This document shows, one piece after another, positions 18,531 to 64,000 of a stretch of 64,000 nt of DNA. Both the position numbers and the translations under genes were made by a program. The notes below the pieces were generated by a model that was not told the DNA's origin, ran no database searches, and saw only the letters and a program-made list of their open reading frames with translations. Numbering within the stretch: position 1 is the first letter of the stretch; the number at the start of each line of letters is the position of its first letter. Origin of the DNA: Pagrus major (Eukaryota > Chordata > Actinopteri > Spariformes > Sparidae); assembly GCF_040436345.1 (NCBI RefSeq), contig NC_133232.1, forward strand, positions 16,186,220 to 16,250,219, in the 5' to 3' direction.

Positions 18531-21500
18531 CTACATTTTGATCCCAGCGTACAGTTCGTCTATCTGAGATCTGAAGTGTTGTCGCATTTCATTCCTCTTG
18601 GCCTTCAGAGTTGGAGTGAGCAGGCCGTTCTCGATTGAGAACATCTCAGTGTGGATGCAGATGGCCTTCACCTAAAGGACACATACGTGGTGGCAGGTTG
18701 TGTTAGAGGGGATGATAAAGTTTCACTTTCAGACAAAAGAGTCCCATGGCTGGAAACAGTTTGTAAAAACACCACAAAGTCTACTGAGCTATCCAGAGGT
18801 ATGGCCCACTGAATTATGAGCAAGTGTTGTACCTGCTCAAAGGACTTGAGGCCTGCTTCCTTGCCCAATCGCACCATGTCTTCCAAGATGGCTGCCTTGA
18901 CTTCCTGTACAGGCAGAAAAAAGGCAGGTTGCTCAGTACAATGAGCTAATAAAAAGCTCTTTCAATTAGCTCTCTGTACATGGGCTATGGTTTCCAAAAA
19001 CAAGCTTCATTCAGTCTAAGCTTTCAGTTTCTTGTTTAAAGCAATTTTAGTAGTTCAAATGTGTTTGTTTTGGTCATCAACACCATCTGTCGTGTTCTAA
19101 AATGTGTTATTTTAAATATTAATTATGTAAATGTGGACTTTTTACAATAATTCCCCTCATACAAGACAAAGTGATCCTTTAATGTTCATTGGTCTTTGTT
19201 TTCTTTTGTATTCAGTAGAGTTTGTCAAACTTACATACTATATAGAGGATATGACTGGAGCTGGATGTTTCAACCTTTATCTGTTATTTGTAGCTATCCA
19301 TTTTTACTTCTCTGCTTGATTGCTAACTATTTTTCAAACACTCAATTAGAGTTCAGGTGTGAGCTGTCTCAGTTTGGTAGGAGGCTGGTCTGGTGCTGGT
19401 AGTTTATTAGTTATTGTGCCAATAAATATATTAAGTTTAGCCTCACACTGGTTTGTAGTGCCATTTCTTTATTTTCCTTCAAACCAAATATGTGAAACAG
19501 AAAGAAGTACAATTAGAAAAAGCAATTTCTTTTTTCTTCTTCTTTTTGAATTAGTTGATCTTTCCATGCACCCCCTTACAACTGCAGAAATACCTCCTGG
19601 TGTACATGTGTCAAAAGGAGGGAAATTAATTTACAGTGTGGCCACAGGAAGCAGTATGTATGCAGTCTGAATGCATTGTGTCATTACACTATGTAAAGTA
19701 TTACCGCTCTGCCACATAGTTCCTGGTAGCTGCCTTCCAGTCCCAGCGTCCTCTTGGTCCAGCCAGACAGGAAGTCAGGGTCAGGAACCACCATTGCTAC
19801 CAGACACGCCTGCATATAAAACACAATACAGACAGTAAATTTAACCAAAGGGAACAGAGGTCAGAGAGACTGTGGGCCTAATGGTTAGCTTGATTGCAGT
19901 TAAACAGGGAACATTCACACATTCAATTTCGTCCACCTACCTGTAGACTATCTCCGTGCACGTAGACCTGTGCCACTGCATCACTCCTCGTGTAGACATT
20001 CTCAATCTTTTCAGGAGCAATGTACTCCCCCTGTGCCAGCTTAAAGATGTGCTTCTTCCTGTCCACGATCTTCAGGGTGCCATTCTGTAAACACATACAC
20101 ACAGAATTTATCTTAGTCCACATATTTATGAAACGCCTCCAGGTTGACAAACACACAGAATGCTATGAATAAAGCTGAAGGTAATTAATTTCGGGTGAAA
20201 TAAATATCTGTAGCATTGAGATGAAAAAAGTGAGGTTGAAATTAAACGACATAATTTAACGTACCGGAAGCCATTTTCCAATGTCTCCAGTGTGAAGCCA
20301 TCCATCTGCATCAATAGTCTCAGCAGTCTTCTCTGGGTCCTTCAGATAGCCCTGGAACACGTTAGGACCCTTCACACACACCTTAAAACCAAAACACATA
20401 CACAGTCAGTTATGAGTGTGCATTTATAAGAAATATAAAAACCACATGATGTATGTTTATGTTTCACCTCTCCCTCTCCGTTTACAGCCAGGTAGTTCAT
20501 CTCAGACACATCCACAAGTTTGATTGAGTTACACGGCAGAGGAGCTCCAACATGGCCTGTCGACATGAGGTAAAATTTAGTTCATCCATCACTTAAAGGC
20601 TTTATGCCGTAAGACAGAAAAAAAAACACAACATAATTTCACATTTTTAAGTCAAGCAGCTTTGTTATTCATTACCAGCACTCCAGTCCCCAGGCATGGT
20701 CGTGGTGCATCCAGCTGTACACTCTGTTTGTCCATAGCCTTCATAGAACTGAGACAGAGGAAAAGCTATGATTGTTAGGCAACCGATTGGGAACAGAAGA
20801 AGATTGTGGATGATTGCAGACAGTAGTACATTGCACAGTTTCAGTTAAAGGTGGTAGAAAAGATACCAGATAACATTTGAAAAAGGGCTGAGCTTAACTT
20901 GAGTGTGTTCGTGTTACCTGGCAGCCTATTGCAGCTCTGAGGAAGGTGAGGACAGTAGGAGAGATGGGAGCAGCTCCAGTTATCATGAGACGCACACGAC
21001 CTCCAAGGCTGGCCTGTAGAGGGCAGCACACTACATTAATCTGACAGTAATGCAGTATCAACATACCAAGTAAATAACATAAAAAACATTATCCAACACT
21101 GCATCACCTTCAGCTAAGCTGTTTGAGAATGCTAAAGTTGTAGGTATATTTATTGTGTGCTCAAAGGATATAAATCAATGCCTTCTGTAACAAACCCTAC
21201 ATATGAGTTAAGCCTGTGTCTACAAACATAAAAGCCACCTAAGTATCTGAAGTTGAAGTAAATTGTGAGAAAACAACAACAAAAAACTACTTTCATAGAA
21301 CCAACTAACCAAATGTTTATTTTATTTATTATGCATAATTAAAAAAATTAGTTAATTGTATCAAAGGATAAGTTCACCCAAAAATGAAAAGTCAATATCT
21401 ACCCACCCTCATGCCGATGAAAAGTCAGGTTAAGTTTCATAGTCAACAAAATATTTCTGGAGCGTCACAGCAAAACAGCCTTGCAGCATTCTGCTAAACA

Positions 21501-24028
21501 ACTGAAGTAGATGGAGACTAAAATTAGAAAAAAAGAAAGAAGTAAAAAGCATAAAGTGGCTCCATACAGCTCGTCCAGCTTTATCCAAGTTTCTGCAAGC
21601 CCTGAGACCAAATTGATTTGAAAAGACATTATTTACACTCTCAATGCGCAGCTGAGCTCATGCCTATACTTCAGCCAGGTTGTGGCTAAGCTTTTAGCTT
21701 AGCAGCTACAGTGAATATTTCAGCCTTAGAAGGGGTGTAGATAACAAGACTTTGGAATAGATTAGGCTCTATGAGCTGTGTGAAGCCACTTTGTTTTTTT
21801 CAGCTGTTTTTTTGTCTTAAAACAAGTCCACATCTACTTCGGTTGTTTAGGAGAATGCTGCAACCCTGTTTTGCTGTGAAACTCCAGAAATGTTATTTGG
21901 ACTACAAAACTTCCTCCGATTTTCCATCAGCTTGAGGGTGAGTAAATAATAGCTGAATTTTCATTTTTGAGTGAGTTCCTTTAATTTGATATATCGCCCA
22001 GCCCTAGAAAATCCCATTCCAAGACATGGAGGAGACAACCATACAGTGACGTAACAGGAGTTTGAACTGTGCTGGCTCTGTGTACCTGGACCTTCCCGAA
22101 GATGAGTCGATCCCAGATACTGTCTCTCCTCATGATGCCTTTCATCATCTCTGCCTCCTTCCTCCTGAAGGCGAAGCCCAGCACCCAGCGCTTCAGAGAG
22201 CTGTTGGCCTGCCCAAAGATCTGCAGAGACACACACACCAATGCTTACAATTATTAGGAACAGTATCATCCTTAATTTAAAATGCTAATATGAGCAGCGT
22301 CAGGTGATAGTTTTGATAGCTAATACTCCTGTCAATAAGGCTATCATCATTGTGTCCACCTACCTTATCATACATTCTGTTCAGGAGTCGGGGTACCACA
22401 GGGAACACAGTGGGTCTCAGTGTGTTCAGGTCATCTGACAGCCAACGAATATCTCCCTGAAAATAGCCAATCCTGGCTCCCTGCGCTATCATCACTCCCT
22501 GTCAGAAGAGAAAATTTAACAGCTCCTCATAACTGCTTCATATATAATGACAGAGGTTGACACACAGGGTTTGTAGGAATACTACAGGGTGACTATGGGA
22601 TCTAAGGGAATATACAATACCTGTACTACTCTCTCAAACATATGAGCCAGGGGCAGGTAGGAAATATGGACGTCGCTGGTACACATTGGACAGTGAACCT
22701 AAAACACGTGTATACACACACAGACAGGAATGCAGACAGGGTCACATTGACACACAGTTGTACAAACACACACGAGCGATGGACACGAGCCAGACAAACA
22801 GACAGACAGGGGAACACACAGACAGGCAGGAGAAAGCAGTTTGTTAATGTGTGTACCTCCACCACCCTCTCAAACATGTGGGCCAGAGGTAGAAAAGACA
22901 GCATGACATCTTCTGACGTGGTCTGAGCGCAAGACTGGAGAGAAGAGGGAATAGTTTACCAAAGTTCCTCCCACTTCAAACAAATTAAATTTTATCATTA
23001 TTTCTTCCTCTTGAGATATGGTGGTACTTCTGGATCCTGAATCATTGGAGGGATTGAAATGTCAGTGCAACAGCTGGAAACGCTCTGCTCCATCATTATA
23101 AAAAAAACGAATACAAATAAATCTCAGTCAAGTCGCTTTAACCTCCCTCACTCTTGTTCTTACTTTTCTGTCTATTCTAGCATTGAACTTGACTCAACAG
23201 AAACTGGCCACAATCTTAACAAAGCTCCTTTTTTTTTGCCTTTGCCCTACTTCCTCAGTAGATCTGTTGAAGCCATGACGGCATTACTACTGTAGTACAG
23301 GAATATTAACAGTATTGTCAATTATAGCGTTATAAGAGGAGGAGGTGAAGAGGAAAAGTAGAAAGAGAGGGAGAGGTAGAGGTAGAAGAGTAAAAGAGGA
23401 TGTGGAGAAGGTGAAGGAGGAGGTGGAAAAGGAAAGGAGGAAGTAGGAGGATGAAGAACATGAGGTAAAGAAAGAGAGGAGATGTAATGGAGGAAAGAAG
23501 GAAGTAGAGAGGGAGGGGTGGAGGTAGAGCAAGAAAAGAGGAAGAGCAGGAGAGGAAGAGACAAAGAATGAAGAGAGGAGATAAAGAAGGAAAAGGGAGG
23601 TAGAGGAGGAGGTGAAGTAGGAAAGGAGGAAGTAGAGGAGGAAGAAGATGAGGTAGAGAAAGAAGAGGTGGTAAGAGGAGGAAAGGAGGAACTGGAGAAG
23701 GAAATGAGGTAGAGCAGGAGAGGAAGAGAGAGGGAGGGGAGGCAATAACTGAGGAAAAGAGGAGGTAGAGGAGGAAAGGAAGAGGTAGCAAAGAGGAGGA
23801 GTAGACAGAGGAGGGTAGGAGATCAAGTATTACATCAGCACCTCACCTCTGTCACTCTAATGAAGGCTGAGCAGTTGGACACAATATTCCCATGAGTCAG
23901 CATAGCTCCCTTTGGGTTTCCTGAAAGCGCACACACACACACACACACACACACATAGGTCATCTTTACATCTTTAAAGTAGTAGTAGGGTACTCTTGAT
24001 TACTCATGAAATCATACTGGGTGCTATA

Positions 24029-24060
<32 letters not shown>

Positions 24061-27000
24061 CACCTGTTGTTCCACTTGTGAAGCAGATAACAGCCATATC
24101 CTCAGGTTGTGGAGGCTGGAAGGGTGGGGGTGACAACATTCAAGCAGTGCCACATAACTGACAACATTATCATTATTTTAAGTATTGACTGGTAAGGAGC
24201 TACTCACCACTGGTTGGTGATGGTTGGCCTTCCCAATAGCCTGCACAACAAGAGAAGCACATTAATGAAGTCATTATGGATGGAGTAATAAAGAGACTGG
24301 CAAGAAAGCAAAAAACAGAGCAATCAAGAAAATCTAAATAAAAAAAGGACATTTGGAGTGAAGACAACACAACAAGAAAACTAACAAGAAAAAAGGAAAT
24401 TTTAAAAAATGCCAACAAAGCAAAAAAACAAAAGAAGGTAAGAACAAGACAAGGTGGCAAAAGGGGAAAGCACAAACGAGATAAAACAAAAAAAAGAACA
24501 ATATATAAAGCAAAATAATGATTAAGGAATAAAAGACAAACTAACCTCCATCTCCTGCAGACTGAGGATGTGGATACCAGCCTGTTGCCCCCTGCTGACC
24601 AGGTCGGCACTGGGGGTCTCCATTAGAATGATGATTTTCACAGTATGCTCCTTGTCCTTCACACAGTCCAGCACCAGGTTGACTTTCTCTACCACGTCAC
24701 ACACAATGGTCGAGATGGAAGCTGCAGAAACAAACAAAAACCCATGCAGACAGATCAGGTCGCCCTCAGTTCTCCGACAAAAACACTGAAGTGTAGGTTT
24801 TCATGTTGTTGCTGCTGGGGTTTACCTTTCTCCATAATATAACTGATGGCTTCTGTTCCCAGTGTGTCGTACAGAGGGACTGACACAAGAGAATAAGTAT
24901 AACATGCCAGCTCAATGATGGTCCACTACACACACAAACACACATGAAAAAGCATTAAAGGATGATCAATGGACTCAGTAGCAATAGCAGATAAATACCA
25001 TAGGAACCACATGATGTGACATTATGAGCCTGAATGTCAAAAAATATATTAATAGAGCAAACAAGTAAAGTAATCATTTACAGATTTTGTCACTACTGTT
25101 ATTATTCTTTGTCCTACTTCTATCTAGAGGACAATTATGCTCTAAGTTCTGGGACTTAAGTTCCCGTAATGCTTCAGGAATGTACACAGGAAGTTTAAGA
25201 ACACTATTAGTGATTTTACTGAAGGCTACAACTTGAGCCTAGTTTTTCCTAGCCTATATTTGTTTACGTTTTGGCAAATTGGCACTATAAAGTAGGCCGC
25301 ATAGGCTCTTAGCACTTCCTATTTGCGATGTACCCAAGGGTGTGCATATAACTATCACTGGAAAACTTTCATAATGAAAAATATCACGATGATTCAGGCA
25401 AGGTCTGAGGAGTGTCTTTTTTCTCTGATTTCTAAGCAGATTTTCGGATGTTTATTAGCAATGACCATCAGAGATATCCTCAGAAAGTGTGTGTCACAGT
25501 GGATCTAAAAAGATGCATGTTTGTCTATATGGTTGGATTTGACTGAGTTATGAGTCAGAAAAGGAGTGAAAGGGGCATGTCTGTACCTCAGGTCTGTTCT
25601 GAGAGAAGATGCCTATGTGGGAGTCGGTGGTCTTCGAGTGTCCTTTGTGGAGAAATGCTGAACCCAGATTTTCTGTTCGCTCAATTACCTAACACACACA
25701 GACACACACACGCACACATGATATGAAGTGTTTCTTGATTTTCAGTATCGTAGTTATACCCAACAATCACATGCTCTGTTACTTATCACAGTTAAAATGT
25801 CACTAGTTGCCACATTTACAGCTCTTAACCGGTTTAATCAGTAAATGACAAACAAAAGCACAATATGGTCAATCAGGCTGAGGCTGGAATATTTCATTAA
25901 TATTTTACCTACAGTGTTCAAGCTGTACTTACCAAGTTCTACTATCAGTGATACTAATTCCCTCCCTGTTCACATACTATAGTAATTAGAAAGAAACGTG
26001 AAATATATTTTGTTAACTGTAATGTTACCAACACCTCATTATCAAGTCCTTACAGAAACATGAAATGGAAGAGTGATCTTCAAAAATAATAAAGTTTATT
26101 GCCATAATAAACGCAATGAACCAGATTAAATACGTGTTAATAGGATTTACCATCAGCAGACTTCACTCTAACACACAAACTGTATCAGCAGATAATTAAG
26201 TTAAGACGATTAAGTAGTAACCTCTTTATTTGTTGGATTAAAAACCTATTGTTTACATCAAAACATTGGAGAATTGGTTATTAAGGGTACATGTTACTGA
26301 TAAGACTATGACATTACCTTTCATGCAGCCCTGCTGTACTATAGAATGCATCTTCTGAAGCTTACATAACAAAAAAATAATGATAGCTATTATAAACTAT
26401 TCTCTTCCATGAATTTACAGGACTCAACACAGACAGATTCTTTTTGATAGAAGCAGAGGCCAGGATATTCTACCTTTTAATCCACTCTGAGTGTGTGTGA
26501 CTGTCTATAACTGTGTCCAACTAGAGGCCATAATGTTTTTATAAGGTGACTCTTACCTCTCTGTAGGACATCCATTCATAGGGCTGTTTTGGTTTCCTGG
26601 AGCCAAGACAGGGACCGTTATCTGGAGGATAAAAGGAAAGTGACACAGGGAGGAGTGACAATAAAAGAAAAAAAAAAAATTGAGTAAATATCTTACAGCG
26701 CTATCTTAATACACTGTACATATACATTCTGGTGCTGACAAACAAGACTTATTTTTTGGAAATCACACAAACAATAGGGTCTAGGCAGCAGTAAAACTGC
26801 AGTGTTAATAGTGTAACAGGGGAGACTGCTGACTCAAACCCCTGAGCTAACACTGTTCAGTAAAGTACAGGGAAAAGGATATGGTCCAAAAATTTTAAGT
26901 AAACTACATTGGTAAAAAGAACCTCAGTGAATGTACTTGTAAAGGAAAAGTAATGTTAAGAGTTACTGAGCAGAATGAGCTCTAGTTTACTGTTGTGGAA

Positions 27001-27979
27001 GTTTCAACCCCATGTAAGGGTACAGGCTCTTGAGTAACTCAGTGTACCCACTCAAAGATGTAAAACATTGATGTATTTGTGACTCACTGGAGACTCGGGC
27101 CCCTCTGAGGAGGAACTCATACATTGTTCTGGCATCATCGTAGAAATAGGTCAAGTGATCTCCGTCTCCATTGAGTAAAACTGATTGACGTGCCAACTCT
27201 CCACCCTGATAAAAACATAAAAACAAATAAAAGCTGGTTATGATAGATCTAGTAATTCCAACACCAGTTTCAGTGTGCTTCTATCATGAAGTACATTCTT
27301 TTATATTTTATGTCATACTTTTTATGTACTTTGTAAAGTGTTGTACAAAGTACCTAAAAGTCATATTGGTGGACTGCTATCGGTCTGGCCTTTATTCAAC
27401 ATTTTTCCGATTGAAAACTGTGTGTTTTTATTTGAATATTGATGAAAATACAGTACTTGGGCTCTGGACCAGCATTTAATGAGTGAATGGACTTTAGATA
27501 CATTTCATCACTGATTTTGTAGTTATCTTTTAACACAAATGTGAATAGATTACCATCAAATAAACAAAATGCTGCATGATATCTTTGAATAGGAAGTGCA
27601 GAGGGTGGGATACTGTCACAAAAATGCAAGATTTAGATTTCAGTTTCACCACAAACTGATAATGGTCTTCATATTAATGCACATTAATAATTTACTCAAG
27701 ACCCTATAGACCATGACCTCAACTCAAGCCCTACAACCCTATAGACACCTGACTCTGTGAGACAGACTTTGCCCTTAAACTTACCGGAACCTCGACTGAC
27801 TGCATGTGAAGGTCGCAGACTGGTGGGAGGGCCTTGGGTCGTGTTGCCAGGTAGTAGGTTGTCGCGGCAGCCACTGCCCCCATGCTAACTAACATGGGGG
27901 TGGAGATGCCCCTGATGGACTGGCTGACATCCTCCATATCTGGCAACCTCAGCTTCTGAATGAACTCCTGGCTCAGCAT
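18531..27979 (-). CDS. acsl1: Long-chain acyl-CoA synthetase 1, 20 coding exons plus one alternative exon
   Basis: Membrane-anchored AMP-forming enzyme that converts C12-C20 fatty acids, ATP and CoA to acyl-CoA at ER and mitochondrial outer membranes. Exons in order: 27785-27979, 27088-27205, 26557-26621, 25587-25688, 24826-24925, 24546-24721, 24208-24240, 24064-24115, 23847-23920, then either 22857-22934 or 22621-22698, then 22364-22498, 22086-22220, 20918-21013, 20676-20748, 20468-20556, 20265-20381, 19941-20084, 19705-19809, 18833-18904, 18531-18671. One path gives 699 aa (human ACSL1 698). A hydrophobic anchor lies at about residues 26-46. The P-loop TSGTTGNPKG is at 276-285, YGQTE at 458-462, and the FACS signature starting [14 protein letters not shown] at 533. 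All are intact. The ATG at 27979 is 4 nt after an acceptor, so non-coding exons lie upstream. ACSL5 and ACSL6 are close relatives; the casp3-cenpu neighbourhood favours acsl1. Confidence 0.95.
21363..21983. mobile_element. MITE with long (~85 bp) inverted ends
   Basis: Within an acsl1 intron. The left end AAAGGATAAGTTCACCCAAA and the reverse complement of the right end, AAAGGAACTCACTCAAAAAT, are imperfect inverted repeats that continue for about 85 bp (...CACCCTCA.GC.GATG...). The interior (21450-21890) has no transposase. A target duplication was not found. A hAT-like end (GCCCAGCCCTAG, 21997-22008) follows directly. Confidence 0.65.
22621..22698 (-). CDS. acsl1: acsl1 alternative exon, Tyr gate version
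   Basis: A 78-nt exon, phase 0/0, with acceptor TTTTAG|GTTCAC and donor GTACAG|GTATTG. It encodes 26 residues ending [19 protein letters not shown]. It aligns without gaps to the 78-nt exon at 22857-22934, and both are followed in frame by the exon at 22364-22498. In mammalian ACSL genes, mutually exclusive exons of this kind set a Phe or Tyr in the fatty-acid gate. Including both exons would keep the frame but duplicate the motif. Confidence 0.85.
22857..22934 (-). CDS. acsl1: acsl1 alternative exon, Phe gate version
   Basis: A 78-nt exon, phase 0/0, with acceptor CTCCAG|TCTTGC and donor GTGGAG|GTACAC. It encodes 26 residues ending [20 protein letters not shown], with the aromatic gate residue Phe at about residue 319 of the full protein. 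It lies 158 nt upstream (in transcript sense) of the Tyr version. No stop or broken splice site is visible in either exon. Confidence 0.85.
23334..23823. repeat. ~490-bp purine-rich (GGA/GAA) tract
   Basis: The plus strand is almost entirely A and G with scattered T and very few C, built from irregular GAGGA/GAAGA/GGTAGAG words. In the acsl1 pre-mRNA it is CU-rich. It lies in the 912-nt intron just upstream of the Phe/Tyr exon pair. Long open frames on the minus strand here (Ser/Leu/Pro/Phe only) are an artefact of composition. Confidence 0.92.
23930..24060. repeat. Opposed (CA)n and (GT)n runs filling a 143-nt acsl1 intron
   Basis: (AC)n lies at 23930-23955 and (GT)n at 24033-24060, both inside the intron 23921-24063. 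In the transcript, a CA run follows the donor (CAG|GTGACACAC) and a GU run precedes the acceptor by about 9 nt. The two runs are complementary and could pair. Confidence 0.9.
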
Positions 27980-62087: not shown

Positions 62088-64000
62088 CTAACAGGAATGA
62101 GGAAACACACAGCTGTTTTTTCTGTTCAGGTTCATTTTCTACCAAATGTGTTAGAGCGTGTTATAATCCATCTCTTATTCAAACAGTGGAGACGGAGACA
62201 CAGACACTCTTCAAACAGAGTTGCTCTGCTTTATGCTTATTGAAAAGACTCCACTGTGTGAACTTGAGGTGAGCCGTTTAATCAAAAACAAACAACATTT
62301 TCAGGAAGGAAGTTTGAGTGCGCACCACTATAAACACACAGAACTACACAAACAGAATTTCAATTATTTATTTATCTTCTACACAAGGCTCTGAATTTAA
62401 AATGGAAAATTGTAATATATTACAGTACATATAGTACAATAGTTTAGAAATCATAAAACACTAATATGTGCTTCAACAGAAGGGCAAATTCAGATAAGCC
62501 AAATTAGTAATACAAAATGTATTGCATGTAACATTGTGGATGATTTTGGAAATACACTTATTGAGATTTAGATGAAAAAATCAGTATCACTCTCTTGTCT
62601 TTGTGTTTAGCAGGGCGCTAAAGCCAGGATACTGTTAGCCTAGCGCAACATAAAGACTTAACGCAGATGAGAACAGCTAGCACAGCTCCGTCCAAGGTTC
62701 AAAAATACACCCACTAACACCTCTAACGCAGGCTAATCGTCTGGTTTGTTTAAATCTTACACAAACCAAATGTAAAAACATCAATTTGTAGATTTAAATT
62801 AGTGAGCTTTAGATGTGCTCTTTGGAGTATTTTTTAGCATTGGTGAGAGTAAGGCTAATCACTTCCTGCTGCATCCAGTCTTTATACTACGCTAAGCTAA
62901 TAGCCACCGTGCTCGATCCTCTGTACTTGACGCACAGCTGTGAGAGTAGTATCAAGATTTTTTATATAAGTATAGACAAGATAGATAATATGCATATTTT
63001 ATAAAATGTGAAGGAAAATATTACTATAGAGATTAATTATAAGGTTAACATTTATATTATTGAACCTCAGATTAGTATTAGTCAGCGCAATAGTGCAGCT
63101 CATCCCACTTAATGTTTGTGTGTAGTACATATTTATCCCCAGTGGCCATGTTAGAGCACCATGGGGCCCATGAACTACACCTTCAATGTGGCAGCCATTT
63201 TGGCCAGTGGCATCCACTGAGGAGGAAGCACTGAATTTGACAAGGCTGCAGTCTTTTTAAATACTAATTTTCTGAGGAGTAGTCCTCATGGAGCCAGTAG
63301 CTTAGCTGCAGTATAAGTTAAATCAGGTTAACCCTCTGTTGACTGGAACAAAGAAATGTGTTTTGATACGCCACATTGCCATCGTCAGGACCTGTGGTTG
63401 AAACTGCGGTCATGGTTACTGTGTCACCTAACCCGTGGTTGCAGTTATCATTAGTCAGATAATGATAACTGCAACTGCAGGTTGCAAGAATTTTTTGAAG
63501 TCACAGAATTCAGTGTACAAAAATTCTAATCTTTTACAATTCATGAACATTTATGTCAAACCAATGCAACTGTGCAATGTATCGAAAATGTGTAATATGT
63601 ATTTTTAGTCCCTGTTACAGGCTACAGAGATATATGACTTAAAGAGGTCTATATTTTTTATTTTGATTTCTTCAGTATCAAAGTAATCGGAGGATAGTTG
63701 TCTGTATATCTGTGGTGCTAATTTACCAATATTATAAGGGAATATAAGGCTAAAAAAAACGTTAGTCCCAAATTATACGTACTGTGGGGCCAAAACTTGT
63801 TTATCAACATGTTTATCCACCAAATCAAACCAAAACTAAAAAGCTATCATCAAATCAAGTGTAAAATCAGAAATGTAGAAGCTGGCATTATTCAGCAACG
63901 TTCCTCTGAATCACCTGTGTTGGGTTGGGCTCACCTAACATCATAAATCTGGTTTTGCTGCTCTTCAGCAGAGTCTGTGATTGCTTTGCAGTAGTAATCA
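62088..64000 (-). other. polr1a: Presumed polr1a intron running off the window
   Basis: Acceptor TTAG|GTTATC at 62088 shows that an exon lies upstream, but no frame here encodes the expected preceding RPA194 segment with a phase-0 donor. The DNA is AT-rich. It includes a stretch (62620-62960) with the TAGC-rich words common in fish intergenic repeats, and an imperfect inverted repeat near 63405-63485 (GCAGTTATCATTAG / CTGATTAGTAT-like). Confidence 0.45.

Follow-up and report, generated by a model that had tools for sequence, protein, structure and literature searches.

Probable mutually exclusive gate exons in acsl1b of Pagrus major and the variable gate residue of the second exon among fishes

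Results

The acsl1b gene and its neighborhood

The window, i.e., the whole 64,000-nucleotide stretch of Pagrus major DNA analyzed here, carries an acsl1b coding region on the minus strand (18531..27979). The model is complete, running from a start codon to a stop codon (27979..18531), and comprises 21 coding exons with both gate exons counted. The AMP-binding domain PF00501 was recognized with a score of 307 bits (cut-off, 29.9); PF13193 fell just under its own cut-off (24.4 vs 24.5). Other exons encode a caspase domain (1677-2184) and a sialyltransferase (37-41 kb), and the Pfam-level matches in the window are presumably CASP3, ST3GAL5, and POLR1A. An Antennarius protein model (P0144) has ACSL1 fused to a sialyltransferase domain; the two genes are neighbors in the window, so this is probably a gene-model fusion. 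A SNORA5 H/ACA snoRNA was also found at 63114-63250 on the minus strand (Rfam RF00392, 73 bits).

The gene had been called acsl1 in the first-pass annotation, and the name is borne out: the best match and most named rows among the 120 matches listed are called ligase 1 or 1-like. Its closest tree rows among the matches listed are Sparus aurata (94% across 654 non-gate columns) and Acanthopagrus schlegelii. In a quick tree of 122 rows, the gene lies inside a clade (SH-aLRT 98) that includes 1b-named proteins and from which all rows named or sorted as 1a are absent. Contig C1 carries both acsl1a and the best caspase paralogue, though the two are about 4.8 Mb apart. Because of the placement in the 1b clade and the caspase neighbor with its best paralogue on the acsl1a chromosome, the gene is assigned as the acsl1b ohnologue, one 3R copy of acsl1. 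An acsl6 identity was also considered, prompted by stretches of the protein that we take to resemble ACSL6. It was rejected on the named relatives (ACSL1), the 1b clade, the caspase neighbor, and the presence of a more acsl6-like locus on contig C13; the 122-row tree itself holds no ACSL6. The caspase gene near acsl1b resembles the arrangement described for the vertebrate Acsl family, in which the 3R duplicates of acsl1 are flanked by casp3 (Lopes-Marques, 2013; PMC3890633). Unlike the present analysis, the available portion of that paper does not treat the gate exons and uses the word "exon" once, for primers.

Two gate exons for one 26-residue segment

Two exons of 78 nt on the minus strand encode residues 306-331. 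The Phe-gate exon (E1, 22857..22934) has M316 and F319, and the Tyr-gate exon (E2, 22621..22698) has H316 and Y319. They lie between the shared upstream exon 9 (23847..23920) and a downstream exon common to both forms (22364..22498), both on the minus strand as well. Each gate exon is preceded by AG and followed by GT, which confirms the proposal of two 78-nt exons of phase 0/0. The accompanying claim, that the exons are gap-free alternatives of a single segment, also stands, as the full model yields a 699-residue protein with either exon. The earlier description of the splice sites as good was overstated with respect to strength, although the AG and GT dinucleotides are present. The donors GAG|GTACAC and CAG|GTATTG agree with the consensus at 5 and 6 of its 9 positions (gene range 5-8), so both gate-exon donors are on the weak side, and the E2 acceptor, with 9/16 pyrimidines, is joint lowest with those of three other exons of the gene.

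The motif D-x4-(F,Y)-LPLAH-x2-E was found in both exons, and 12 of the 26 residues differ between them in this segment, which covers the fatty-acid gate. Identity between E1 and E2 is 14/26 residues and 43/78 bases. Silent codon differences occur at nine of the 14 common residues, which argues for an old duplication held at the protein level and against recent conversion. When the window was scanned with E1 in six frames (BLOSUM62, ungapped), the best match after E1 itself was E2, with a score of 68; the next best scored 33, which was also the best score in 20 block-shuffled windows.

Among the best 60 of 182 matches to solved structures, none is named as an animal ACSL1/6-type enzyme. The top four (E 2.6e-53 to 2e-44) are bacterial proteins of the carboxylic-acid-reductase type, and long-chain acyl-CoA ligases, e.g., 3g7s and 7kyd, rank lower. 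In the alignments, the bacterial carboxylic-acid-reductase-type proteins have Phe or Tyr opposite the ACSL gate residue (NFMPLSH, NFMPMSH, and NYMPMSH). An AlphaFold model built from a 31-row alignment was set aside, with a mean pLDDT of 51 and values of 21-28 in the gate region.

The statement that alternative Phe and Tyr gate exons are known from mammalian ACSL1 and ACSL6 agrees with the published account: both genes have mutually exclusive gate exons, Phe upstream and Tyr downstream, and the pair was proposed to exist because of the Phe/Tyr change (Soupene and Kuypers, 2006; PMC1543647). The gate-exon pair itself is thus a known vertebrate arrangement. Both exons are seen here directly in a fish gene, as the first-pass annotation put it; both gate types in fish had already been noted (PMC1543647). 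The fish exons share with those of human ACSL1 and ACSL6 the length of 26 residues, the Phe-then-Tyr order, the motif given above, and a His three residues before the Tyr (PMC1543647). They differ in that the Phe exon of the window has M316 rather than L316, and in that the Tyr exon of fish acsl1b relatives often has Phe with His316 kept. A paper on carp acsl6 also reports the gate motif in fish acsl6 (PMC7370118). A study of cold acclimation in carp names acsl1a and acsl1b expression and, in its available text, no exon choice (PMC7538616).

The same pair in acsl1a and the age of the duplication

The exon that follows the gate has matches at five loci of the genome (E of 1 or less): the window itself (contig C18) and loci on C1, C20, C13, and C5. 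The C1 locus, acsl1a, carries the same two-exon gate pair. At the C13 locus (L007), the gate exon found has Phe, and an ungapped scan of the approximately 4.8 kb before the next exon found no second gate exon. One gate exon each was found at the C20 locus (L009; Phe, TAVVPTTQDVSISF...) and the C5 locus (L010; Tyr, GSFVIRQEDVSISY...). We take the C13, C20, and C5 loci to be acsl6, acsl5, and acsl2, respectively.

Between acsl1b and acsl1a, 18/26 residues are identical for E1 and 19/26 for E2, as compared with 14/26 and 13/26 for E1 against E2 within the two genes. The exons are thus closer to their counterparts in the other gene than to their partners, which indicates that the pair existed before the gene was duplicated. 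Both gate forms also occur in gar, whose lineage lies outside the teleost duplication; separately annotated Phe and Tyr isoforms exist in gar, in zebrafish acsl1a, and in Megalops.

The E1-E2 intron and a likely basis of exclusivity

The coding frame of acsl1b is preserved when E1 and E2 are both included or both left out; hence, exclusivity must be enforced physically. The intron between them (22699..22856, minus strand) is 158 nt long, without an AG before the acceptor. Its AG-free end of 156 nt is the longest among the 20 introns of the gene (the next is 84); for exclusive exons with distant branch points, an AG exclusion zone of 100 nt or more is expected before the downstream exon. The mono-shuffle P for the absence of AG is 0.007, a mild value given that part of the intron resembles a CTGT repeat. 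A constitutive intron of the gene (86 nt) is likewise AG-free. The only yTnAy match in the intron is TTAAC (22843..22847, minus strand), a predicted distant branch point whose A (22844) lies at +13 from the E1 donor. A degenerate site, GTGAC, occurs at +115, 43 nt before the E2 acceptor; it is near the usual branch range, so by sequence a distant branch point would not be required in acsl1b. In acsl1a, the corresponding intron is 63 nt long, has its only yTnAy at +21, and contains one internal AG, at the donor end. Upstream of E1, the intron holds a degenerate C/T-rich array (23382..23788, minus strand), and a run of 400 nt free of AG overlaps this array; the array is possibly a site for pyrimidine-tract binding proteins.

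In OGDH, distant branch points under the limit of about 50 nt enforce exclusive splicing (PMC7969005). Distant branch points are also known for other exclusive exons, and exons with distant branch points are marked by long AG exclusion zones (PMC1431707). As in OGDH exons 4a/4b, the branch point predicted here is less than 50 nt from the upstream donor and a long AG-free stretch precedes the downstream exon; in OGDH the branch points were mapped by experiment, whereas that of acsl1b is a prediction (PMC7969005). By analogy and by the intron anatomy, the proposed mutual exclusivity of E1 and E2 is well founded. The likely means is an E2 branch point no more than about 50 nt from the E1 donor, which would block the joining of E1 to E2. 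Each acsl1b mRNA would then contain one exon of the pair, and the gene would encode two long-chain acyl-CoA synthetases. The actual splicing, the position of the branch point, and a difference in enzyme activity between the E1 and E2 forms are inferred, the last by way of human ACSL6. In our assessment, E1 and E2 are very probably an ancient mutually exclusive pair, with an E2 branch point near the E1 donor as the likely basis of exclusivity.

Exon use is also suggested by 20 proteins found only as "lgn" entries among the matches listed, 11 through the E1-form query and nine through the E2-form query. All 20 carry E2, none carries E1, and none carries both. Their contigs are 2.2-3.4 kb long vs the 9.4-kb gene in the window, and they therefore look like spliced transcripts. 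Five of the 20 have Phe in E2, four of these being near-identical to Micropterus salmoides. Because E1 does not occur among these proteins, its use rests on annotated isoforms of relatives.

Other readings of the exon pair are improbable to different degrees. If E1 and E2 were independent cassette exons, they could be jointly included or skipped, giving four in-frame isoforms; both outcomes keep the frame, gate-less transcripts of human ACSL1 and ACSL6 exist (PMC1543647), and some fish gene models contain both exons. Such models, e.g., P0016, P0023, P0026, and P0127, look like automatic predictions. The 63-nt intron of acsl1a would leave well under 50 nt from the donor to a branch point at the usual distance, and the absence of joined exons from the 20 "lgn"-only proteins points the same way, so we consider independent inclusion unlikely. 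That one exon of the pair is an unused relic appears less probable still. It would fit the lack of E1 among those proteins, which is weak as evidence in lists of up to 120 rows of 90% clusters, but the gate Phe of E1 is present in 40/40 acsl1b-like and 11/11 acsl1a-like listed segments, the second half of E1 is nearly invariant, and E1 forms occur among the annotated proteins of many species; E2, for its part, is in every one of the 20. Exclusivity through competing RNA base-pairing, as in insect Dscam, is very improbable: the E1-intron-E2 segment folds no better than its shuffles (z +1.87), of which 99 of 100 equal or exceed it in folding.

Gate residues in fish relatives

Relatives were counted in three lists of up to 120 matches each, in 90% clusters ranked by likeness to the query, and many of the proteins are predicted. 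The gate letter was masked as X in two of the relative queries, and the E1 form was used in one. For the gate counts, the split into 1a and 1b was set from names and gate letters, and the 122-row tree agrees with it. P0035, P0063, and P0086 were caught only by a looser gate pattern, and P0265 showed no gate. Trees were built from one E2 row per named species and all "lgn" rows of the first lists.

Among the matches listed, acsl1b-like E1 has Phe in 40/40 segments, with M at residue 316 in 30 and L in 10. Of the 99 acsl1b-like E2 segments listed, 61 have Phe and 38 have Tyr; by named species, with the window left out, the counts are 50 Phe and 23 Tyr. The acsl1a-like E2 segments listed all have Tyr (58/58 segments, 35/35 named species). 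A later list added 93 further proteins with 84 E2 segments, of which 82 have Tyr and two, both from Gadus, have Phe among the matches listed. The Gadus E2 (among P0241, P0242, and P0278) has His316-Phe319, and in the tree Gadus sits on a long branch that is not part of the 1b clade. Both exon types are documented for 20 species, 12 of which are Phe/Phe and eight Phe/Tyr, some of them from models joining both exons.

Whatever the residue at 319, His316 is present in 84/85 of the acsl1b E2 rows listed, including 55/55 of the Phe rows. A 12-residue stretch of E2 is intact in 45/55 Phe rows and 20/30 Tyr rows among the matches listed, which indicates that the Phe copies are not decaying. The strong divergence reported for the first ten residues of the two exons is conserved within each class only in part: T5 of E1 occurs in 30/32 rows, and in E2, C3 occurs in 73/84, P4 in 75/84, and D9 in all.

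Rows are grouped here as acanthomorphs and percomorphs, and sparid refers to the family of Pagrus. Tyr is present in all 38 acsl1b rows listed from outside the acanthomorphs (37 plus Pangasianodon), which makes it the probable ancestral state. In the acsl1b E2 rows, residue 319 changes 10 times on a gate-free tree (bootstrap 10-11); at least five changes are forced by supported branches, or at least four in a quicker tree. A one-rate model that allows only Tyr-to-Phe change (lnL -42.96) is worse by 8.5 log units than the equal-rates reversible model (-34.50). Three sparid rows, including the window, have Tyr amid mostly Phe neighbors, and a regain of Tyr in these rows is possible from the sequences. 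Some of the apparent changes could instead stem from rapid radiation, lineage sorting, or tree error. In a search for a residue compensating for Phe319, no column separates Phe from Tyr rows (the best are 335 and 25, difference 0.48); supported branches provide only five independent pairs, too few for a verdict.

Discussion

What the exon pair is kept for

The first-pass annotation took the Phe/Tyr switch as the point of the pair. In the window the exons do differ as Phe and Tyr, but this reading is weakened by the relatives, in which the same E2 position is Phe in 55/84 listed rows, with both exons kept. A feature other than residue 319 may be what maintains the pair, with His316, residue 331, and the first ten residues as candidates and the Phe/Tyr contrast as one labile trait; we regard the case for and against as evenly balanced. 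This reading competes with the functional reading of the pair, not with the identification of the exons. It draws on the 50 named species with Phe in the acsl1b-like E2 beside 23 with Tyr and on the 12 Phe/Phe among 20 species with both exons (eight are Phe/Tyr), all among the matches listed, as well as on the near-constant His316 (84/85 rows), the Phe copies that are not decaying, the 10 changes on the gate-free tree, and the better fit of the reversible model. Against it stand the Tyr of acsl1a-like E2 in all 35 named species listed and the later list, in which the two Gadus rows are the only Phe among 84 E2 segments; together with the 38 Tyr rows of acsl1b outside the acanthomorphs, they suggest that Tyr matters in most of the family. 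Moreover, the counts come from proteins, many of them predicted, and the number of changes may be overestimated through incomplete lineage sorting or errors in the tree.

In human ACSL6, the activity of the Phe form on oleate is about ten times that of the Tyr form (Soupene, 2010; PMC2868784), and a His316-Phe319 enzyme is poorly active, while His316-Tyr319 and Leu316-Phe319 are active (PMC2868784). The residue numbers are the same in the window gene, whose M316/F319 and H316/Y319 exons both avoid the poorly active H316/F319 combination; in contrast, many acanthomorph acsl1b E2 exons are exactly H316/F319. Going by the sequences, the His316-Phe319 gate is common among the fishes listed. We see an even chance that, in acanthomorph acsl1b, the pair outlives the Phe/Tyr contrast, with Tyr lost and probably regained in about ten changes, and that the Tyr of the window may itself be a regained one. 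By the human rule, the His316-Phe319 forms would be nearly inactive; if so, either fish ACSL1b escaped the ACSL6 rule by changes elsewhere, or the E2 isoform would act as a low-activity partner in mixed oligomers.

The comparative data suggest a new point, namely that acsl1b keeps the pair whether or not its exons differ at the gate residue. The open-licence literature, searched by title or abstract start, yielded no report of an exon pair kept without a gate-residue difference. Whether the Phe/Tyr swap explains the pair, as proposed in 2006, becomes a testable question, for which about 50 fish species offer natural His316-Phe319 gates beside His316-Tyr319 relatives, including the window. The two ohnologues also form a matched pair for the upkeep of exclusive splicing, with the very short acsl1a intron vs the longer AG-free intron of acsl1b.

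Two further entries were noted among the relatives. Among P0241, P0242, and P0278, a Coregonus form is Leu316-Tyr319. P0063, whose recorded source is the lamprey Lampetra planeri, shares 85% identity with the window gene and is probably fish DNA in the lamprey assembly.
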